In this document: positions 26,853 through 38,801 of the stretch, piece by piece | How the letters are laid out: each line of letters opens with the position of its first letter | Numbering within the stretch: the stretch's first letter is position 1 | Origin: Opitutia bacterium | GTDB taxonomy: Bacteria > Verrucomicrobiota > Verrucomicrobiia > Opitutales > UBA953 | Direction: 5' to 3' | NCBI GenBank assembly: GCA_003569245.1 | Contig: BGOM01000010.1 | Coordinates: forward strand, 1-64,000 | DNA length: 64,000 nt | Translations under genes and position numbers: made by a program | Notes under the pieces: model-generated | The model's input: only the letters and a program-made list of their open reading frames with translations | What the model was told of the DNA's origin: nothing | Databases searched by the model: none

Positions 26853-27806
26853 TTATTTGGCCGGCGCGGGCGGATCGCCCGGGGTGACGGGGAGGAGGGG
26901 GAATTGCCACTTCTCGCGAATCAGGATCTCGTTGTGCAGCTTGCACACCACTTCCTTGCCGCCCTCCGCGAGTTCGGTGGACATGATCGCCGGGGAGGCC
27001 GGACCCTGGTTCTTCGGGTAGTTGACCTGTAACTTCTTCACCTCGACGGCCTGGCCGTTGATCCGGGGCATGCCGATGCGTACCTCGAGTTTGGGCAGTT
27101 CGGCGATGACCACCTTCTTCCCTCCGTAGATCTCGATGAAGGCCGAATGGGTCCCCCAGAACTTGAGCGTCCGGCCCGGGAACTTGAGCGAGGTGATGAA
27201 GATGGTCTGGTTGGTCGACTTCTCCGTGAGGAACGCGCCGACCCAGGTCCACTCCTTGCCGTCCTTGTCCTTCTCGTAGGTCAACTTGCGAACCGCGTAG
27301 GTGTAGGTGCCGGCCTTCCAGGGGAAGGGGCGCCGGCCGGAGGCGAAATCGCCCTCGTAGCCGGCGGCTTCGGTCAGGCCATTGAGCGCCGGGCGGACGA
27401 AGGAGGTGTCGAGGTCCTTGTTGCCCCAGCGGGAGAAGATCGCGCCCTTGCCTTTGTGGTAGGCGCCCTGCGGGCTCGCGTCCGACACCGGGTTGCCGCC
27501 GATGTTGGTCTGGATGCCGCCGTAGAAGTTCGTGTCGTTCAGCTGGCCGAGCCCGATCGGCGCGATGTAGAGGTTGAGCTTGGCCGGGTCGACGTCGTCG
27601 CTGATCGTCACGTCGATCTCCAGGGACTCGAAGTCTGGCGTCTCGGGGATGCTCCACCAGAGGTTGACCATGTGCCACGGCAGTTTCGTCTTTTCGTTCG
27701 GGAGCGGGCGTTCGATCGGGGTCGCGGTGATGACCTTGGGTTGGGCCTCCTCAGCGCCAAGGAGGCCGGCGGCGGTCAGCACGAGCAGGAGGGGAAGGGC
27801 GCGCAT
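26853..27806 (-). CDS. Secreted protein, possibly DUF3472-like
   Basis: A 317-residue exported protein with a signal peptide (MRALPLLLVLTAAGLLGAEE). The mature part is beta-rich, with LNLYIAPIGLGQLNDTNFYG, KGAIFSRWGN and WKAGTYTYAVRKLTYEKD. Phrases about a nearly identical view of a folded sheet (GGIQTNIGG, AIFSRWG) recall DUF3472/DUF5077 proteins, but I cannot confirm the family. No catalytic motif is visible. It is the first gene of a two-gene unit with the putative metallopeptidase. Its promoter must lie between 27807 and the terminator at 27893. Confidence 0.65.
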   Translation of the reverse strand: MRALPLLLVLTAAGLLGAEEAQPKVITATPIERPLPNEKTKLPWHMVNLWWSIPETPDFESLEIDVTISDDVDPAKLNLYIAPIGLGQLNDTNFYGGIQTNIGGNPVSDASPQGAYHKGKGAIFSRWGNKDLDTSFVRPALNGLTEAAGYEGDFASGRRPFPWKAGTYTYAVRKLTYEKDKDGKEWTWVGAFLTEKSTNQTIFITSLKFPGRTLKFWGTHSAFIEIYGGKKVVIAELPKLEVRIGMPRINGQAVEVKKLQVNYPKNQGPASPAIMSTELAEGGKEVVCKLHNEILIREKWQFPLLPVTPGDPPAPAK

Positions 27807-30100: not shown

Positions 30101-30664
30101 TCAACCCTTCAGGTCGGCTTCCTTGGCCTTGAGGTTCTTCTCGATGTCGGCCGTGAACTTGTCGGTGTGGTTCTGGATCTCCTTCTCGGAGCGCTTCATC
30201 TCGTCGTCGGTGACGAGCTTATCCTTGTTGCCCTTCTTGAGGAGCTCGAGGGCGTCGCGGCGGGCGTTGCGCACGCGGACCTTCCCATCCTCGGCCATCT
30301 GGGTGGCGCGCTTCGCGAGCTCGAGGCGGCGTTCGCCGGAGAGGGAGGGGACCGGGCAGCGCATGAAGTTGCCCTGCGGGACGGGGTTGATGCCGATGTT
30401 CGCGGCCATGATGGCCTTGCGGATGTCGTCCATCACGCCCTTGTCGAACGGCTGGACCACGATGGTCTGCGCGTCCGGGGTGGTGATGGCGGCCATATCC
30501 TTCAGCCGCTGCGTCATGCCGTAGGCCTCGATGTGCACCTGGATGTTCTCGATCATGCCCGGGGAGGCCTTGCCGGTGTGCAGCGTGGCGAACTCGTGCG
30601 AGGTGTGGTCGACCGCCTTCTTCATGGCGGTGGCGCCGTCGGCGATGATTTTCTTGATGTCCAT
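30101..30664 (-). CDS. frr: Ribosome recycling factor
   Basis: Splits post-termination ribosomes together with EF-G. The 187-residue protein has the normal two-domain length: an N-terminal helix ([20 protein letters not shown]), a domain II beta part ([20 protein letters not shown]) and a long C-terminal helix ([20 protein letters not shown]). The start ATG is preceded by CCCCTCCCCTCCC rather than a purine-rich ribosome site. It follows pyrH after 33 bases, the usual pyrH-frr pairing. Confidence 0.96.
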
Positions 30665-30697: not shown

Positions 30698-31432
30698 TCA
30701 GGCGACGAGGGTGCCGATGCGCTGGCCGAGCACGGCCTTCTTCACGGCGCCCTTGTCCGACATCGAGAAGACGATGATCGGGAGCTTGTTGGCCTCGCAG
30801 AGCGAGAAGGCCTCGGCGTCCATCACGCCCAGACGCTTGGTGAGGGCTTCGGCGTGCGAGACGCGGTCGTAGCGCTTGGCGTCCTTGTGCTTCATCGGGT
30901 CCTTGTCGTAGACGCCGTCGACCTTGGTGGCCTTGAGGATGGCGTCGGCGCCGATCTCGTTGGCGCGGAGGGCGGCGGCGTAGTCGGTCGTGCAGTACGG
31001 GTTGCCGGTGCCGGCGACGAAGATGACGATACGGCCGCGGGTGAGGTGGCGCGTGGCGCGGCGCTGGATGAAGGGCTCGGCGATGCGGTCCATCGGGATG
31101 GCGGTCATCACGCGGACCTCGAGGCCGGCTTTCTCGAGGCGGTCCATGAGGGCGAGGCCGTTGATGACGGTCGCGAGCATGCCCATGTTGTCGCCCGTCG
31201 TGCGGTCGGTGCCGTTGGCGCGGGCGCCGGCGAGGCCGCGGAAGATGTTGCCGCCACCCACGACGACCGCGACCTGCGTGCCGAGCTGGCGAAGGGACTT
31301 GAGCTCCTCGGCGAGGCGATCGAGCACGGCCGGATCGATGGATTCGCCGGAGGCATCGTTCCGGAGGGCTTCCCCGCTGATCTTCAGCACGATACGGCGG
31401 TACTTCGACTTCTTGACGGCGGCGGCGGGCAT
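30698..31432 (-). CDS. pyrH: UMP kinase
   Basis: Phosphorylates UMP to UDP with ATP; bacterial-type hexameric kinase of the amino-acid-kinase fold. The 244-residue product contains YRRIVLKISGEAL, VVVGGGNIFRGL, RTTGDNMGMLATVINGLAL, FVAGTGNPYCTTDYAAALRA and TKVDGVYDKDP, all family hallmarks. ATG 31432 gives a nine-residue lead before the first strand. It is the first gene of the pyrH-frr-sucC-sucD run; the upstream 93 bases to the tRNA on the other strand must hold its promoter. Confidence 0.96.
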   Translation of the reverse strand: MPAAAVKKSKYRRIVLKISGEALRNDASGESIDPAVLDRLAEELKSLRQLGTQVAVVVGGGNIFRGLAGARANGTDRTTGDNMGMLATVINGLALMDRLEKAGLEVRVMTAIPMDRIAEPFIQRRATRHLTRGRIVIFVAGTGNPYCTTDYAAALRANEIGADAILKATKVDGVYDKDPMKHKDAKRYDRVSHAEALTKRLGVMDAEAFSLCEANKLPIIVFSMSDKGAVKKAVLGQRIGTLVA

Positions 31433-31674: not shown

Positions 31675-32238
31675 TCAGGCGCGACCCAGGTACTCCTTGT
31701 TCTCGGTGCTGACCTTGATCTTCTCGCCCTGCTTGATGAAGAGCGGGACGTTGACCTGGAGGCCGTTCTCGCACGTGACCGTCTTCTGGACGTTGCCGGC
31801 GGTGTCGCCCTTGACGGCGGGCGGGGCTTCCAGGACCTCGACGGTGACGGAAGGGGGCAGGTCGACGGTGACCGGCTTCTCCTCGACGAAGAGGACCATG
31901 TAGGAGGTGCCCGAGATCAGGAACTCCTTGGAGTCCGCGAGGGTCGTGGCCGAGATGTAGTATTCCTCGTTGGAGTCGGTATCGACGAAGATATAGCTGC
32001 CGTCGGCCTCGTAGGAGTACTCGAGCTGCTTGATCGAGTTGTCGAAGACCTCGAAGCTGACGCCGATGCCGCAACGGACCGGGATCTTGGCGCCGGTCTT
32101 GATCGAGCGGAGTTCCATCTGGACGTAGGAGGCGTTGTTCGGGGGGGTGCGGACGAGGCACTCGAGAACGATGCAGAGCTCGCCGTTGTAGCTCATGATG
32201 TTCTTTTTCTTGATGCGGTTGACGGGCAGGGAGGGCAT
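31675..32238 (-). CDS. efp: Elongation factor P, divergent tip loop
   Basis: Binds between the P and E sites and relieves stalling at proline runs. The 187-residue product has three OB-like domains: a KOW-like N-terminus (NGELCIVLECLVRTPPNN), a middle domain with SYMVLFVEEKPVTVDLPPSV and the C-terminal EF-P signature region (DTAGNVQKTVTCENGLQVNV, FIKQGEKIKVSTENKEYLGR). At the tip loop, TPPNN occupies positions 31-35 where Escherichia coli has KPGKG, so the modified Lys34 is replaced by Asn34. No modification enzyme gene is seen nearby. A possible internal start is Met15. An intrinsic terminator follows. Confidence 0.9.
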   Translation of the reverse strand: MPSLPVNRIKKKNIMSYNGELCIVLECLVRTPPNNASYVQMELRSIKTGAKIPVRCGIGVSFEVFDNSIKQLEYSYEADGSYIFVDTDSNEEYYISATTLADSKEFLISGTSYMVLFVEEKPVTVDLPPSVTVEVLEAPPAVKGDTAGNVQKTVTCENGLQVNVPLFIKQGEKIKVSTENKEYLGRA

Positions 32239-32314: not shown

Positions 32315-33913
32315 CTATTCCCCTCGACCGACCTTATCCGTCACGGCCGGACTGCCGTCCGGACGGCGGTAATTGACCTTGAGGCCCTTCAGTCCCTCGA
32401 GGTCGCGCTCCAGACGGGCCTGGAATTCCGGCCAGGAACGACCGGCGGGGTCGGACCAGGCGACCTCGGCCAGCGCTTGGAGGCGAGGGAAGGCCATGTA
32501 CTCCAGTTTGGCCCCGTTGTAGATGTACTCCGACCAGAGCTGGGCCTGGCAACCGAGCACGAGCTTGCGTTGCTCCGGGGTGAACTTCGGAGGAATCGGA
32601 TCGAAGCCGTAGACTTTCTCCACGGTCAGGGTGCCGCCGATCACGTCGAAGCGCGGGTCCGCGGGACGCTTGCCTTGGCCGTAGTCGAAGTAGGTGTGGG
32701 AGGTCGGGGCCATCACGATCGGGTTGCCGCGTTCGGCGGCCAGCTGCGCCCACTTCCAGTCGCGCCAGACCATCATGGTCGCCGACTTGGACAGGCCGCC
32801 CTCCTGGATCTCGTCCCAGCCGATCAGTTTCTTGCCGCGGGCCTGCAGCATCTTCTCCAGCCGGCCGATGAAGTAGGCTTGGAGCTCGTGCGCGTCCTTC
32901 AGTTTCTCGCGGCCCATGACGCCCTTCGCGAAGGCGGACTTGTTCCATTGATCCTTGGGGGCCTCGTCGCCGCCCACGTGGAAGTAGACACCGGGGAAGA
33001 TCGGGCAGAGTTCGGCGAACACGTCATCGATGAAGCGGAAGGTCTCCTCTTTCGGGGCCAGCGTGTACTGTTTGACGCCCCAGCTGGTGGCCACCTTCGG
33101 CGCATAGCCCGGGATGTCGGTGTTGCCCAGTTCCGGGTAGGCCGCGATGGCGGCGCTCGCGTGGCCCGGCATGTCGATCTCCGGCACCACCGTGATGTGG
33201 AACTTCGCCGCGTAGGCGACGATCTCCTTCAGGTCCTCCTGGGTGTAGAAGCCTCCGTAGGGCTTGCCGTCGGACTTGTTCCGGTCGCCCATCACGGGGG
33301 AGGCGTCGCGGCGGGCGCCGACCTCGGTGAGCTTCGGGTACTTCTTGATCTCGACCCGCCAGCCTTGGTCCTCGGTGAGGTGCCAGTGCAGGACGTTGAG
33401 CTTGTAGAGGGACATCAGGTGCAGCATCCGCTTCACCTGTTCCTTGCCGAGGAAGTGCCGGCCTTCGTCGAGCATCACGCCGCGCCAGGCGAAGCGGGGC
33501 CGGTCGAGCACCAGCCCGGGGCGGACGTAGGCCTTGCCGTCGGAGCCTTGGTAGGTGAGCGCGTCCAGCGTGTTGAAGGCGTAGAAGGCGCCGGCCTCGG
33601 TGGCGGCCTCGATGATGAGATCCTTGCCGGGCTCGTTGATGATAGCGTAGCCTTCGGGGCCGAAGACGAAGTCTCCGTGCTGGTCAGCTTTGATCAGCCG
33701 CAGGGTGGTCTGCCCGGCCGCGGTGGCGCCGATCCGGGGCCGGATGTAGGTCTCGGTCAGAGGGAAGGCCGGGTCGGCCACCAGGTTGGCGCCCATGAGG
33801 GGCTTGGCCGGAGCGTCCATCAGCGGCGACCACTGGACCGGCCTGGGGAGGAAGTTCTGCGCCAGCGCGAGGGCGCAGGTCAGGCTCAGCAACAGGGAAG
33901 GGAGGAGGCGCAT
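32315..33913 (-). CDS. Secreted GH20 beta-N-acetylhexosaminidase
   Basis: Removes terminal beta-linked GlcNAc or GalNAc from glycans. The 532-residue exported protein has a signal peptide (MRLLPSLLLSLTCALALAQ), the GH20b N-terminal domain (GPEGYAIINEPGKDLIIEAA), and the catalytic barrel with RGVMLDEGRHFLGKEQVKRM, LNVLHWHLTEDQGWRVEI and VVPEIDMPGHASAA. FHVGGDEAPKDQW holds the catalytic Asp316-Glu317 pair. The C-terminal MAFPRLQALAEVAWSDP is typical. It lies 76 bases upstream of efp on the same strand, with a hairpin between. It fits with the M60-like peptidases and GH36 enzyme as glycan-degrading functions. Confidence 0.93.
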   Translation of the reverse strand: MRLLPSLLLSLTCALALAQNFLPRPVQWSPLMDAPAKPLMGANLVADPAFPLTETYIRPRIGATAAGQTTLRLIKADQHGDFVFGPEGYAIINEPGKDLIIEAATEAGAFYAFNTLDALTYQGSDGKAYVRPGLVLDRPRFAWRGVMLDEGRHFLGKEQVKRMLHLMSLYKLNVLHWHLTEDQGWRVEIKKYPKLTEVGARRDASPVMGDRNKSDGKPYGGFYTQEDLKEIVAYAAKFHITVVPEIDMPGHASAAIAAYPELGNTDIPGYAPKVATSWGVKQYTLAPKEETFRFIDDVFAELCPIFPGVYFHVGGDEAPKDQWNKSAFAKGVMGREKLKDAHELQAYFIGRLEKMLQARGKKLIGWDEIQEGGLSKSATMMVWRDWKWAQLAAERGNPIVMAPTSHTYFDYGQGKRPADPRFDVIGGTLTVEKVYGFDPIPPKFTPEQRKLVLGCQAQLWSEYIYNGAKLEYMAFPRLQALAEVAWSDPAGRSWPEFQARLERDLEGLKGLKVNYRRPDGSPAVTDKVGRGE

Positions 33914-33972: not shown

Positions 33973-34650
33973 TCACTCGATAACGAAGATGGTCCCGCCG
34001 ATCTGATTGATCGTCACGTTAGGGGTGCCGCCGGCCGCCGCGGCCTGAGCCGCGGCCGCATCGCCTCCCTCGATGGTCGAGCCGGCCGAAGCGGTGACCG
34101 TGCGGGCGCAGAGCAGGTCCTTGAACGCACCGTAGAAGCGCTGCAGCTCGGCCTTCGAGCTGACCACCATCTCGACCGTCTTGGCGTGCGTCGTGTTCGG
34201 GTAGGTCTTGACGACGAGTCCGGCGGTGGCCGATTGCGTGACGTTGTTCACCTTGGATTCGATCGCGGCGAGGGGGCCGGGAATGGGGAGTTTGGAGGCG
34301 GCCGACGGGTCCAGCCCGCGGTTCTGGGAGTTCGCGACGCTGGCGCGGTTGGCACGGTCGGCGACGTCGGCGCTGCCGGGCGGACGGGTGAAGTAGATGC
34401 GCAGTTGCTGGTTGGAATTCTGCATGTCGACGACGACCTCGCTGACCAGGTAGGCGCCGGTGGTGTACTCCTGGAAGGAGACCGAGACCACATGGTCGGC
34501 CCGGCCGTAGAAGGATAGCTCGGTCCCGGCGACCTCGATGCCGAAGATGCCGCCGTTGGGGATGGCCCGTTTCTTCATCTTGAGCGCGAGGGCGTCGGGC
34601 GCGAGGGCGGTGAGCGCGAGGGCGGCCAAGGCGAAGGCGGGCAGTCTCAT
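33973..34650 (-). CDS. Secreted protein of unknown function
   Basis: A 225-residue exported protein, family not recognised. Signal peptide MRLPAFALAALALTALAPDALA. The mature protein begins with a beta-rich part (NGGIFGIEVAGTELSFYGRA, VSVSFQEYTTGAYLVSEVVV), continues through an Asn/Ala-rich segment (ANRASVANSQNRGLDPSAA) and ends in a small-residue C-terminus (AAAAQAAAAGGTPNVTINQI). No catalytic motif or cysteine pair is visible apart from one Cys near residue 175. The start is preceded by AAAGG at suitable spacing, one of few purine-rich ribosome sites here. It is divergent from the ABC transporter at 34698. Confidence 0.65.
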   Translation of the reverse strand: MRLPAFALAALALTALAPDALALKMKKRAIPNGGIFGIEVAGTELSFYGRADHVVSVSFQEYTTGAYLVSEVVVDMQNSNQQLRIYFTRPPGSADVADRANRASVANSQNRGLDPSAASKLPIPGPLAAIESKVNNVTQSATAGLVVKTYPNTTHAKTVEMVVSSKAELQRFYGAFKDLLCARTVTASAGSTIEGGDAAAAQAAAAGGTPNVTINQIGGTIFVIE

Positions 34651-36863: not shown

Positions 36864-38801
36864 ATGCGTACATCCCTCCTCGTCTGTCTCGGTTGGTGCG
36901 CGTTGGTCGCCCAAGGCTTCGCCCAGGCCCCGCCCCCCGGCGCGGCCGTGTCCGGCGGCGGGGGCGGCGATTACCGCAGCTCCACGGCCGAGGGCGGCGC
37001 CGACCGGCTCTTCGACGTGAACAGCGACTCGGTCGACATGGAGAACGGCTCCATGCAGTGGAAGGGCAAGACCTTCAACCTCGGCAATTCGCGCGCCATG
37101 CGCATGCGCTTCGAGCGCTACCTGTCCGCGCCGGCCGCCGGCGGCGACATGCTGAAGTACCAGCAGCTGCTCCAGCGCATCGAGCGGCTGCTTTCCCCGG
37201 GCACCATCAACAATTCCAACTACATCGCCAACCAGCAGGAGGCCTTCAACCTGCTCTTCCAGGCCGCGGAGTTCGAGGTGGACGGCAACAACTCCCTCAC
37301 GATCGCCACCCAGGTGCAGAAGATCTGGAACATGCGGGCGGAGTTCCGCTCGCTCGAGGTGAGCAAGAACCAGCTCGAGGTGATCCGCAAGAACCAGGAG
37401 ACCGTCATCGTCAACCGCGCCGAGAAGATCGAGTCGGCCAACGATGAGCGCTCCTCGCAGCCCGGCAAGGCCGGCCAGCCGACCTTGGCCAAGTCGTCCT
37501 CCGGGACCACCGAGCTCGGTTTCCGCGTCAAGGACGAGCAGCGCACCCAGGCCGAGATCCTCGCCCGGAACGCCGAGATGACCGCGCTGGGGCTCAAGGC
37601 CCAGGTGGAGTTCCAGTCGCAGATGGTCGGGTTCCTCCTCGCCCGCCGCTACCGTCATTGCATCATCTCCTCGGCCTTCTACCGGGTCCTCTTCAAGAGC
37701 GGCAACCAGAACATCCGGGTCGGCGCCAAGGAAGTGAAGGAGTTCTTCCCGGTCTCCGATTTCGTGCCCACCCTGGAGTCGATCGATACGCTCGCCCGCG
37801 AGGCGATGACCGACGTCACCCTGGGGATGAAGACCGTCGACGACCTCGTGAAGCAAGGCGAGCTCTACGGCGCCTTCGAGCGCCTCCAGGAGACCTACTT
37901 CCTCGGCGAATTCGAGCCGTCGGTCATGATGTACGACCAGACCAAGAAGCGCGACATGCTCGAGCTCTGGCGCGACCTCCGCGAACTCCAGCGCCTGGGG
38001 GATGAGCACGATCTCGCGAACGTCGAAGGCTACGTCAACAAGGTGCGCGGCCGGGCCCGCGACTTCCCGGGCGCCGCCATCCTTTCCAAGGTCAACAACG
38101 CCATCAACGCCTCCAACATGGCGGTCCTTTCCGCCAAGCAGGCCGCCCTCGCCGGCGACACCGCCAAGGCCGAGGCCGCCCTCGAGCGGGCGACCAAGAT
38201 CTGGCCGCAGAACCCCGCAGTGAAGGACTTCGCCAACCAGGTGGTCAGCCGCCAGGACACGCTCGCCCAGAAGATCCCGGAGTTCGACCGCATGGTCTCC
38301 GAGGCCAAGTGGCGTGATATCTTCAACAAGAAGTTGGAATTCGCCCTGGCCCTCGCGCAGGACAAGGTCCGTTCGGACAAGCTCCGGCAGGTCGTGAACC
38401 GCATCGGCGAGCTCGATGCCAATATCCAGAAGGCGCAGGTCCTGGCCTCGCAGAACAACCCCTACCTCGCCTGGGACGTGATCGTCGAGACCTCGCGGGC
38501 CGAGCCGGATGACCTGGTGCTGGCGAAGACCCGCTCCGACATCGCCCCGCTGGTGGCCGATTATGCGCGCGTCATCGGCGTCGCCGAAAAACTCGAGAAG
38601 GACGGCGGCGAGGCCGCCGCGCTGACGGCCTGGCTGCAGGCGCAGGACCTCAACCCGGCCTCCCCGGCCTGCGGCGCCGCGATCAAGCGCCTGGCCGGCT
38701 CGCTGGCCCAAGGGGCTCCGGCCAAGGCGACGGCCGCCGCGCCCACGCCCCCCGCCGCCGGCGCGTCCGGTGACGAGGTCGCGGTCCCGCCCCGGCGCTG
38801 A
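36864..38801 (+). CDS. Exported coiled-coil/TPR-like protein, unknown function
   Basis: A 645-residue exported protein. A signal peptide (LLVCLGWCALVAQGFA) is followed by a Gly-rich stretch (AAVSGGGGGDYRS), a short beta part (DMENGSMQWKGKTFNLGNSR) and then almost entirely helical sequence with charged heptad-like patterns (FRSLEVSKNQLEVIRKNQET). It includes TPR-like units (AALAGDTAKAEAALERATKI, AQVLASQNNPYLAWDVIVET). The C-terminus is Ala/Pro-rich. It may be a scaffold in the periplasm acting with the small anchored protein 10 bases upstream; this is inference. No enzyme motif is visible. Confidence 0.75.
   Translation: MRTSLLVCLGWCALVAQGFAQAPPPGAAVSGGGGGDYRSSTAEGGADRLFDVNSDSVDMENGSMQWKGKTFNLGNSRAMRMRFERYLSAPAAGGDMLKYQQLLQRIERLLSPGTINNSNYIANQQEAFNLLFQAAEFEVDGNNSLTIATQVQKIWNMRAEFRSLEVSKNQLEVIRKNQETVIVNRAEKIESANDERSSQPGKAGQPTLAKSSSGTTELGFRVKDEQRTQAEILARNAEMTALGLKAQVEFQSQMVGFLLARRYRHCIISSAFYRVLFKSGNQNIRVGAKEVKEFFPVSDFVPTLESIDTLAREAMTDVTLGMKTVDDLVKQGELYGAFERLQETYFLGEFEPSVMMYDQTKKRDMLELWRDLRELQRLGDEHDLANVEGYVNKVRGRARDFPGAAILSKVNNAINASNMAVLSAKQAALAGDTAKAEAALERATKIWPQNPAVKDFANQVVSRQDTLAQKIPEFDRMVSEAKWRDIFNKKLEFALALAQDKVRSDKLRQVVNRIGELDANIQKAQVLASQNNPYLAWDVIVETSRAEPDDLVLAKTRSDIAPLVADYARVIGVAEKLEKDGGEAAALTAWLQAQDLNPASPACGAAIKRLAGSLAQGAPAKATAAAPTPPAAGASGDEVAVPPRR

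Follow-up and report, generated by a model that had tools for sequence, protein, structure and literature searches.

The window analysed here (the whole stretch of 64,000 nucleotides, from a bacterium of an Opitutales-like, freshwater group of Verrucomicrobiota) carries a gene for elongation factor P (EF-P) that encodes asparagine at tip position 34, which raises the question of how such a tip may work and whether it is modified.

The efp gene and its tip loop

The open frame of efp reads from position 32238 down to 31675 on the minus strand, a strand assignment that was absent from the original prediction for this locus; the plus strand over 31675–32238 holds a different frame, unrelated to EF-P. 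The features concerned are the following.

31675..32238, minus strand: efp (elongation factor P), 187 aa, single copy (open frame, profile matches)
32128..32148, minus strand: codons for the loop TPPNNAS, residues 31–37, between strands 3 and 4 (translation and predicted strands)
32137..32139, minus strand: AAC codon for Asn34, at the loop tip
30698..31432, minus strand: pyrH (UMP kinase), next gene downstream of efp; not a modification enzyme
30101..30664, minus strand: frr (ribosome recycling factor), on the downstream side (PF01765)
32315..33913, minus strand: glycoside hydrolase family 20 gene, next gene upstream (Pfam); no link to EF-P

Translation of the codons from 32148 to 32128 gives TPPNNAS for residues 31–37, with Asn at 34; the residue numbering, which we take to coincide with that of E. 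coli EF-P, places this Asn at the tip position. Codon reading on the minus strand thus confirms the TPPNN residues and the Asn34 that had been predicted. The genome of this bacterium (G000; 2.45 Mb, 24 contigs) contained one EF-P copy at a completeness of 91.31%; a second, canonical EF-P, a finding that would have counted against the original prediction, was not found in this genome and is rejected on the basis of the single EF-P match.

No gene resembling an EF-P modifier was found among the 24 of 43 predicted window genes scanned with Pfam. Three predicted proteins near efp (317, 225, and 645 aa, at window positions 26853–27806, 33973–34650, and 36864–38801, respectively) had no Pfam match at E 1e-5. 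The G+C content was 0.68 in the window and 0.54 in a stretch of a genome from the same genus (G042; L314–L333), a wide difference for one genus.

The encoded protein scored above the gathering cut-offs for all three Pfam domains of EF-P (i.e., the KOW-like N-terminal, OB, and C-terminal domains; PF08207, PF01132, and PF09285) and above the cut-off of NF001810, the NCBI EF-P subfamily model (170.4 vs. 161 bits), in agreement with the earlier view that the remainder of this EF-P is normal, although the cut-off of the equivalog TIGR00038 was not reached (166 vs. 185.8 bits). We read the TIGR00038 shortfall as divergence, given that EF-P remains the top-ranking model and that the predicted fold agrees with solved EF-P structures. 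The EfpL/YeiP models scored far below their cut-offs (NF003392, 109.6 vs. 216 bits; TIGR02178, 91.7 vs. 264 bits), ruling out an EfpL identity. The AlphaFold2 model (mean pLDDT 83.1, pTM 0.62) has an ordinary EF-P shape, in which predicted strands 20–30 and 38–45 flank the loop 31–37, with the seven residues typical of EF-P. An alignment was made between the window EF-P and solved EF-Ps; the top TM-score among the PDB matches listed was 0.84, for C. glutamicum EF-P (6s8z), a value that hinges on domain orientation and calls for a cautious reading.

An EF-P match was present in 80 of the 95 relatives. Within the same family, 50 of 61 genomes had a match and 11 had none, and the loop was read in 42 of the 50 matched genomes. 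All 42 loops (37 from the same genus and five from other genera) were TPPNNAS, which bears out the suggestion that Asn34 might be fixed in related genomes and rules out a sequencing error, a pseudogene, or chance. The proteins that carry these loops fall into 33 different sequences, the seven codons are spelled in 23 different ways at the DNA level, and residues 30–38 form the longest invariant stretch of the protein (41 family rows of length 187). Invariance across 23 DNA versions, together with the longest invariant run, points to strong selection at the protein level; the TPPNNAS loop is, as judged from these sequence comparisons, under such selection in the family.

Distribution and history of Asn34 in the class Verrucomicrobiae

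Asn34 had been presented as a peculiarity of this lineage, but most of the class Verrucomicrobiae has it, in the form TPGNLRAF, and Asn34 EF-Ps have been in print since 2010. The DNA pattern TPGNLR was found in 95 of 133 class genomes, and TPGNLRAF was found almost everywhere when one or a few genomes from each of most families were read; two more class genomes (L160, L165) have a TPGNKRAF loop. The TPGNLRAF EF-Ps, which belong to the same class and one clade, share Arg30, Thr31, Pro32, and Asn34 with the window EF-P, but differ in having Gly33, Leu35, and Arg36, and most genomes with this loop contain a protein of the DHS family, of which there is none in G000. The features particular to the lineage, on this comparison of loops, are the double proline and the loss of Arg36, not Asn34 itself.

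In print, asparagine is listed among EF-P tip residues (PMC11611912), represents 2.2% of EF-Ps in organisms without yjeA/yjeK (Bailly 2010, PMC2821294), and is always accompanied by Pro32 (100% co-occurrence; Volkwein 2019, PMC6544042). The window EF-P (T31, P32, P33, N34) has both residues of this Asn34 group, and shares with it the lack of EpmA (PMC2821294 and PMC6544042 for the group); in contrast to the group, it adds Pro33 and Asn35 and is without Arg36. Asn34 EF-Ps are already in print, and TPPNNAS is a lineage-specific variant. No description of Verrucomicrobiae-wide Asn34, of Arg34 switches without EarP, or of TPPNNAS was found in the literature searched, outside which most subscription journals and supplements lay; a search for Asn34, or Akkermansia, together with EF-P yielded no paper, and the passages of PMC11611912 that were consulted did not mention the EF-P tips of Verrucomicrobia.

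Outside the window's family but within its order, the loop was read in 29 of 30 matched genomes, of which 25 presented Arg34 without Pro32 (mostly TQGRQAG), two presented TPGNLRA (family f14), and one each presented TPPNMRS and TPPNLTS; an order relative outside f14 (L169) presented TPGRRMA. Families f29 and f33 (L149, L152, L153, L172, L173) carry CPPRMAS or TPPRMAS, i.e., Arg34 with Pro32; this pairing is described in print as very rare, and the whole EF-P of these families lies on a long branch. Lys34 was found inside the class as KPGKGPA at L177 (G439), a loop that resembles the Actinobacterial PGKGP loop, and as TPGKGQP in two Opitutales-type MAGs (L290 and L298), so that these three loci present a reversion to Lys34 within Asn34 clades. 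In the phylum outside the class, 48 of 48 loci read were KPGKG or RPGKG (Lys34). The EF-P locus counts include five repeats (L209–L213) from genomes already counted. Extra EF-P paralogs with a very different loop region (e.g., SGTAQTRHKM) are present in some genomes of families f90, f100, f114, and f30 (L125, L126, L131, L143, L163, L175, L176).

On a maximum-likelihood tree of 65 EF-Ps from which the loop columns had been removed, position 34 needs four changes. We read these as one switch from Lys to Asn at the root of the class, two switches from Asn to Arg (in f29/f33 and in the Arg34 families of the window's order), and one return from Asn to Lys. The TPPN rows (families f1, f18, and f21) form one clade (support 100/99). 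A horizontal origin from f29/f33, with their look-alike CPPRMAS/TPPRMAS loops, is rejected, as the tree puts f1 with its own order. Among the best 80 of 575 EF-P matches, the loop was TPGNLRA in 65, TPPNNAS in nine, TQGRQAG in four, and TPGKGQP in two; the titles of these 80 name Opitutae, Opitutaceae, Puniceicoccales, Chthoniobacterales, Limisphaerales, and other Verrucomicrobia, along with a few labelled only "bacterium", one Proteobacteria, and one Akkermansia muciniphila MAG. A record titled "Opitutae bacterium BS6" is among those with TPPNNAS, and the scope of these 80 for Asn34 is Verrucomicrobiota. On this reading, Asn34 of the window EF-P goes back to one replacement of Lys by Asn at the root of the class, and the ancestral TPGNLRA loop turned into TPPNNAS in the window's Opitutales-like family.

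Known modification enzymes and the probable need for EF-P activity

A known EF-P modification enzyme is missing in more than half of bacteria, according to Volkwein 2019 (PMC6544042). Beta-lysylation of the EpmA type does not fit this EF-P, which has Asn34 in a genome with no EpmA above the cut-off; TIGR00462 matches were found in 132 of 133 class genomes, none of them above the cut-off (2 of 14 controls were above it), and the best match in G000 (188.7 vs. 286.9 bits) lies in a 535-aa frame that is likely lysyl-tRNA synthetase. The homologue searches that had been proposed for epmA and earP gave nothing over the cut-off and nothing at all, respectively, in this genome. EarP was found in 0 of 141 class genomes, the Arg34 ones included, and in none of the control panel, so that this search had no positive control; rhamnosylation of the EarP type is also at odds with Asn34 and Pro32 in place of Arg34 without Pro32. 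The latter combination, which is the pattern of EarP-type EF-Ps, is that of the 25 of 29 order relatives described above (within L004–L029, e.g., L004, L017, L028), yet no EarP was found in these class genomes either. For 5-aminopentanolylation by YmfI, one of many SDR enzymes, the substrate is a tip Lys, and the tip residue here is Asn34. No match to the DHS family (PF01916; deoxyhypusine-type modification), including its clade b described below, was found in G000. One missing gene is possible at 91% completeness; the known modifiers are also absent across relatives.

The PPP of ValS depends on EF-P, and the ValS motif IPPPNVTG is kept in G000 and in 17 of 17 full-length ValS sequences read (11 from this genus). 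Proline runs were counted with a home-made gene finder in small samples. For PPP, the window had 5 motifs for 4.7 expected (observed/expected ratio 1.06), 400 kb of the same-genus genome G042 had 39 for 29.1 (1.34), a TPGN relative had 29 for 10.7 (2.71), and a KPGKG relative had 7 for 6.8 (1.03); the ratios for PP were 0.88, 0.89, 1.13, and 0.86, respectively. PPP thus presented no depletion relative to the Lys34 (KPGKG) relative, and an enrichment below that of the TPGN relative. The kept PPP of ValS and the undepleted PPP motifs suggest that EF-P activity is probably needed in this bacterium; ABCF ATPases or YebC-type factors could be alternative handlers of PPP motifs.

Candidate explanations for the Asn34 tip

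On balance, we lean towards a working housekeeping EF-P that is probably unmodified at its tip and has a stiffened loop, where the activity, the unmodified state, and the role of the prolines are what we infer. An unmodified, proline-stiffened Asn34 tip is judged the most likely explanation, and modification by an enzyme not yet known is ranked next. The K34N variant of E. coli EF-P is inactive (Volkwein 2019, PMC6544042); Asn alone therefore gives no working tip in the E. coli loop, and compensation here must come from other parts of the loop or from the ribosome. The double proline may stiffen the loop such that the Asn34 tip works bare. Stiffening by two prolines had been proposed from the outset and stands in part, as it fits the double proline, but the TPGNLRAF relatives manage with Gly33.

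Actinobacterial EF-Ps of the PGKGP type are reportedly unmodified, with a stiff loop. In them as in the window EF-P, a proline lies beside the tip and would, as proposed, make the loop rigid and take the place of a modification; however, the Actinobacterial tip is a Lys with its extra proline behind it, whereas here the prolines lead up to an Asn. For the stiffness of the Actinobacterial loop, PMC11611912 cites its ref. 79; that paper also describes EfpL/YeiP, which shares an upstream Pro and an unmodified tip (putative in the window EF-P), but differs in its tip Arg and longer loop.

There is a lesser but real chance that Asn34 (or Asn35 or Ser37) is modified by an as yet undiscovered enzyme, perhaps one that acts throughout the class, given that in well-studied bacteria an EF-P with a Lys or Arg tip almost always requires modification (PMC6544042 and PMC2821294). 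Asn34 is also held class-wide (95 of 133 genomes by pattern) despite its short side chain, but a comparison of efp loci from the class revealed no conserved neighbour gene; those next to efp encoded a sugar isomerase or were unrelated. An amide nitrogen is, from general chemistry, a poor nucleophile, and N-X-S/T sequons are not conserved. An N-glycosylation sequon at Asn34 is rejected, as the one sequon in NNAS starts at Asn35, and TPGNLRA contains none.

It is improbable that the DHS family is involved, through an uncharacterised deoxyhypusine-synthase-like clade (clade b; about 335 aa; L194–L200, L202–L204) that would modify TPGN EF-Ps and would have been lost from the window's family as the loop became modification-free. 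A PF01916 match over the cut-off was found in 86 of 97 TPGN genomes vs. 0 of 33 genomes of changed-loop families among the 133 class genomes (13 of these 33 had loops read directly and 20 were assigned by family and absent pattern; G186 had no EF-P match); two genomes outside both groups, G388 with a fragment of EF-P and G429 without any EF-P match, had no DHS match over the cut-off. Clade b is present in 62 of 133 class genomes and, among the 95 relatives, only in the two TPGN ones, and it keeps NEKITWGK, the region around the catalytic Lys. Its hosts among these 62 always carry a TPGN EF-P or, once, Lys34. Mean column identity in clade b is 81% (eight rows), and the two proteins scanned (L194 and L203) were below every NCBIfam cut-off. 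Volkwein 2019 (PMC6544042) reports DHS-like proteins from a number of bacteria whose EF-P has Lys34 or Asn34, and considers a modification plausible there. However, correction for kinship left three independent contrasts, two for and one against, which is not significant; the raw DHS/TPGN co-occurrence, for all its striking counts, does not hold up under this correction and counts as no more than a lead. In addition, 11 TPGN genomes have no DHS-family match over the cut-off, while the Lys34 genome G439 has both a PF01916 match and clade b; some DHS-family matches are of the homospermidine type (L201: NF001980, 559 bits, over the cut-off), for which action on EF-P is not expected; Asn is chemically unlike Lys, the DHS substrate; and the clade b gene is not near efp, the neighbourhoods of the two genes sharing no candidate. 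Just as doubtful is a wider scenario in which the class switched from Lys34 to Asn34 in dependence on a DHS-family enzyme, via loop modification or a polyamine, and the TPPNNAS family and the two Arg34 lineages lost the enzyme and had their loops rebuilt as bare ones.

Least probable is an EF-P without proline-rescue activity, with other factors doing the work, which would agree with the inactivity of K34N in E. coli (PMC6544042) and with the long f1 branch in the tree, but not with a loop conserved more strongly than any other part of the family's EF-P, a kept PPP in ValS, or undepleted PPP motifs.

Including the unmodified, proline-stiffened tip that we favour for the window's family, the class presents a series in which, as read here, Lys34 changed to Asn34 once, Arg34 arose twice, and a double-proline loop arose in this family; this series is a natural set for asking what the EF-P tip requires and whether a bare tip works.
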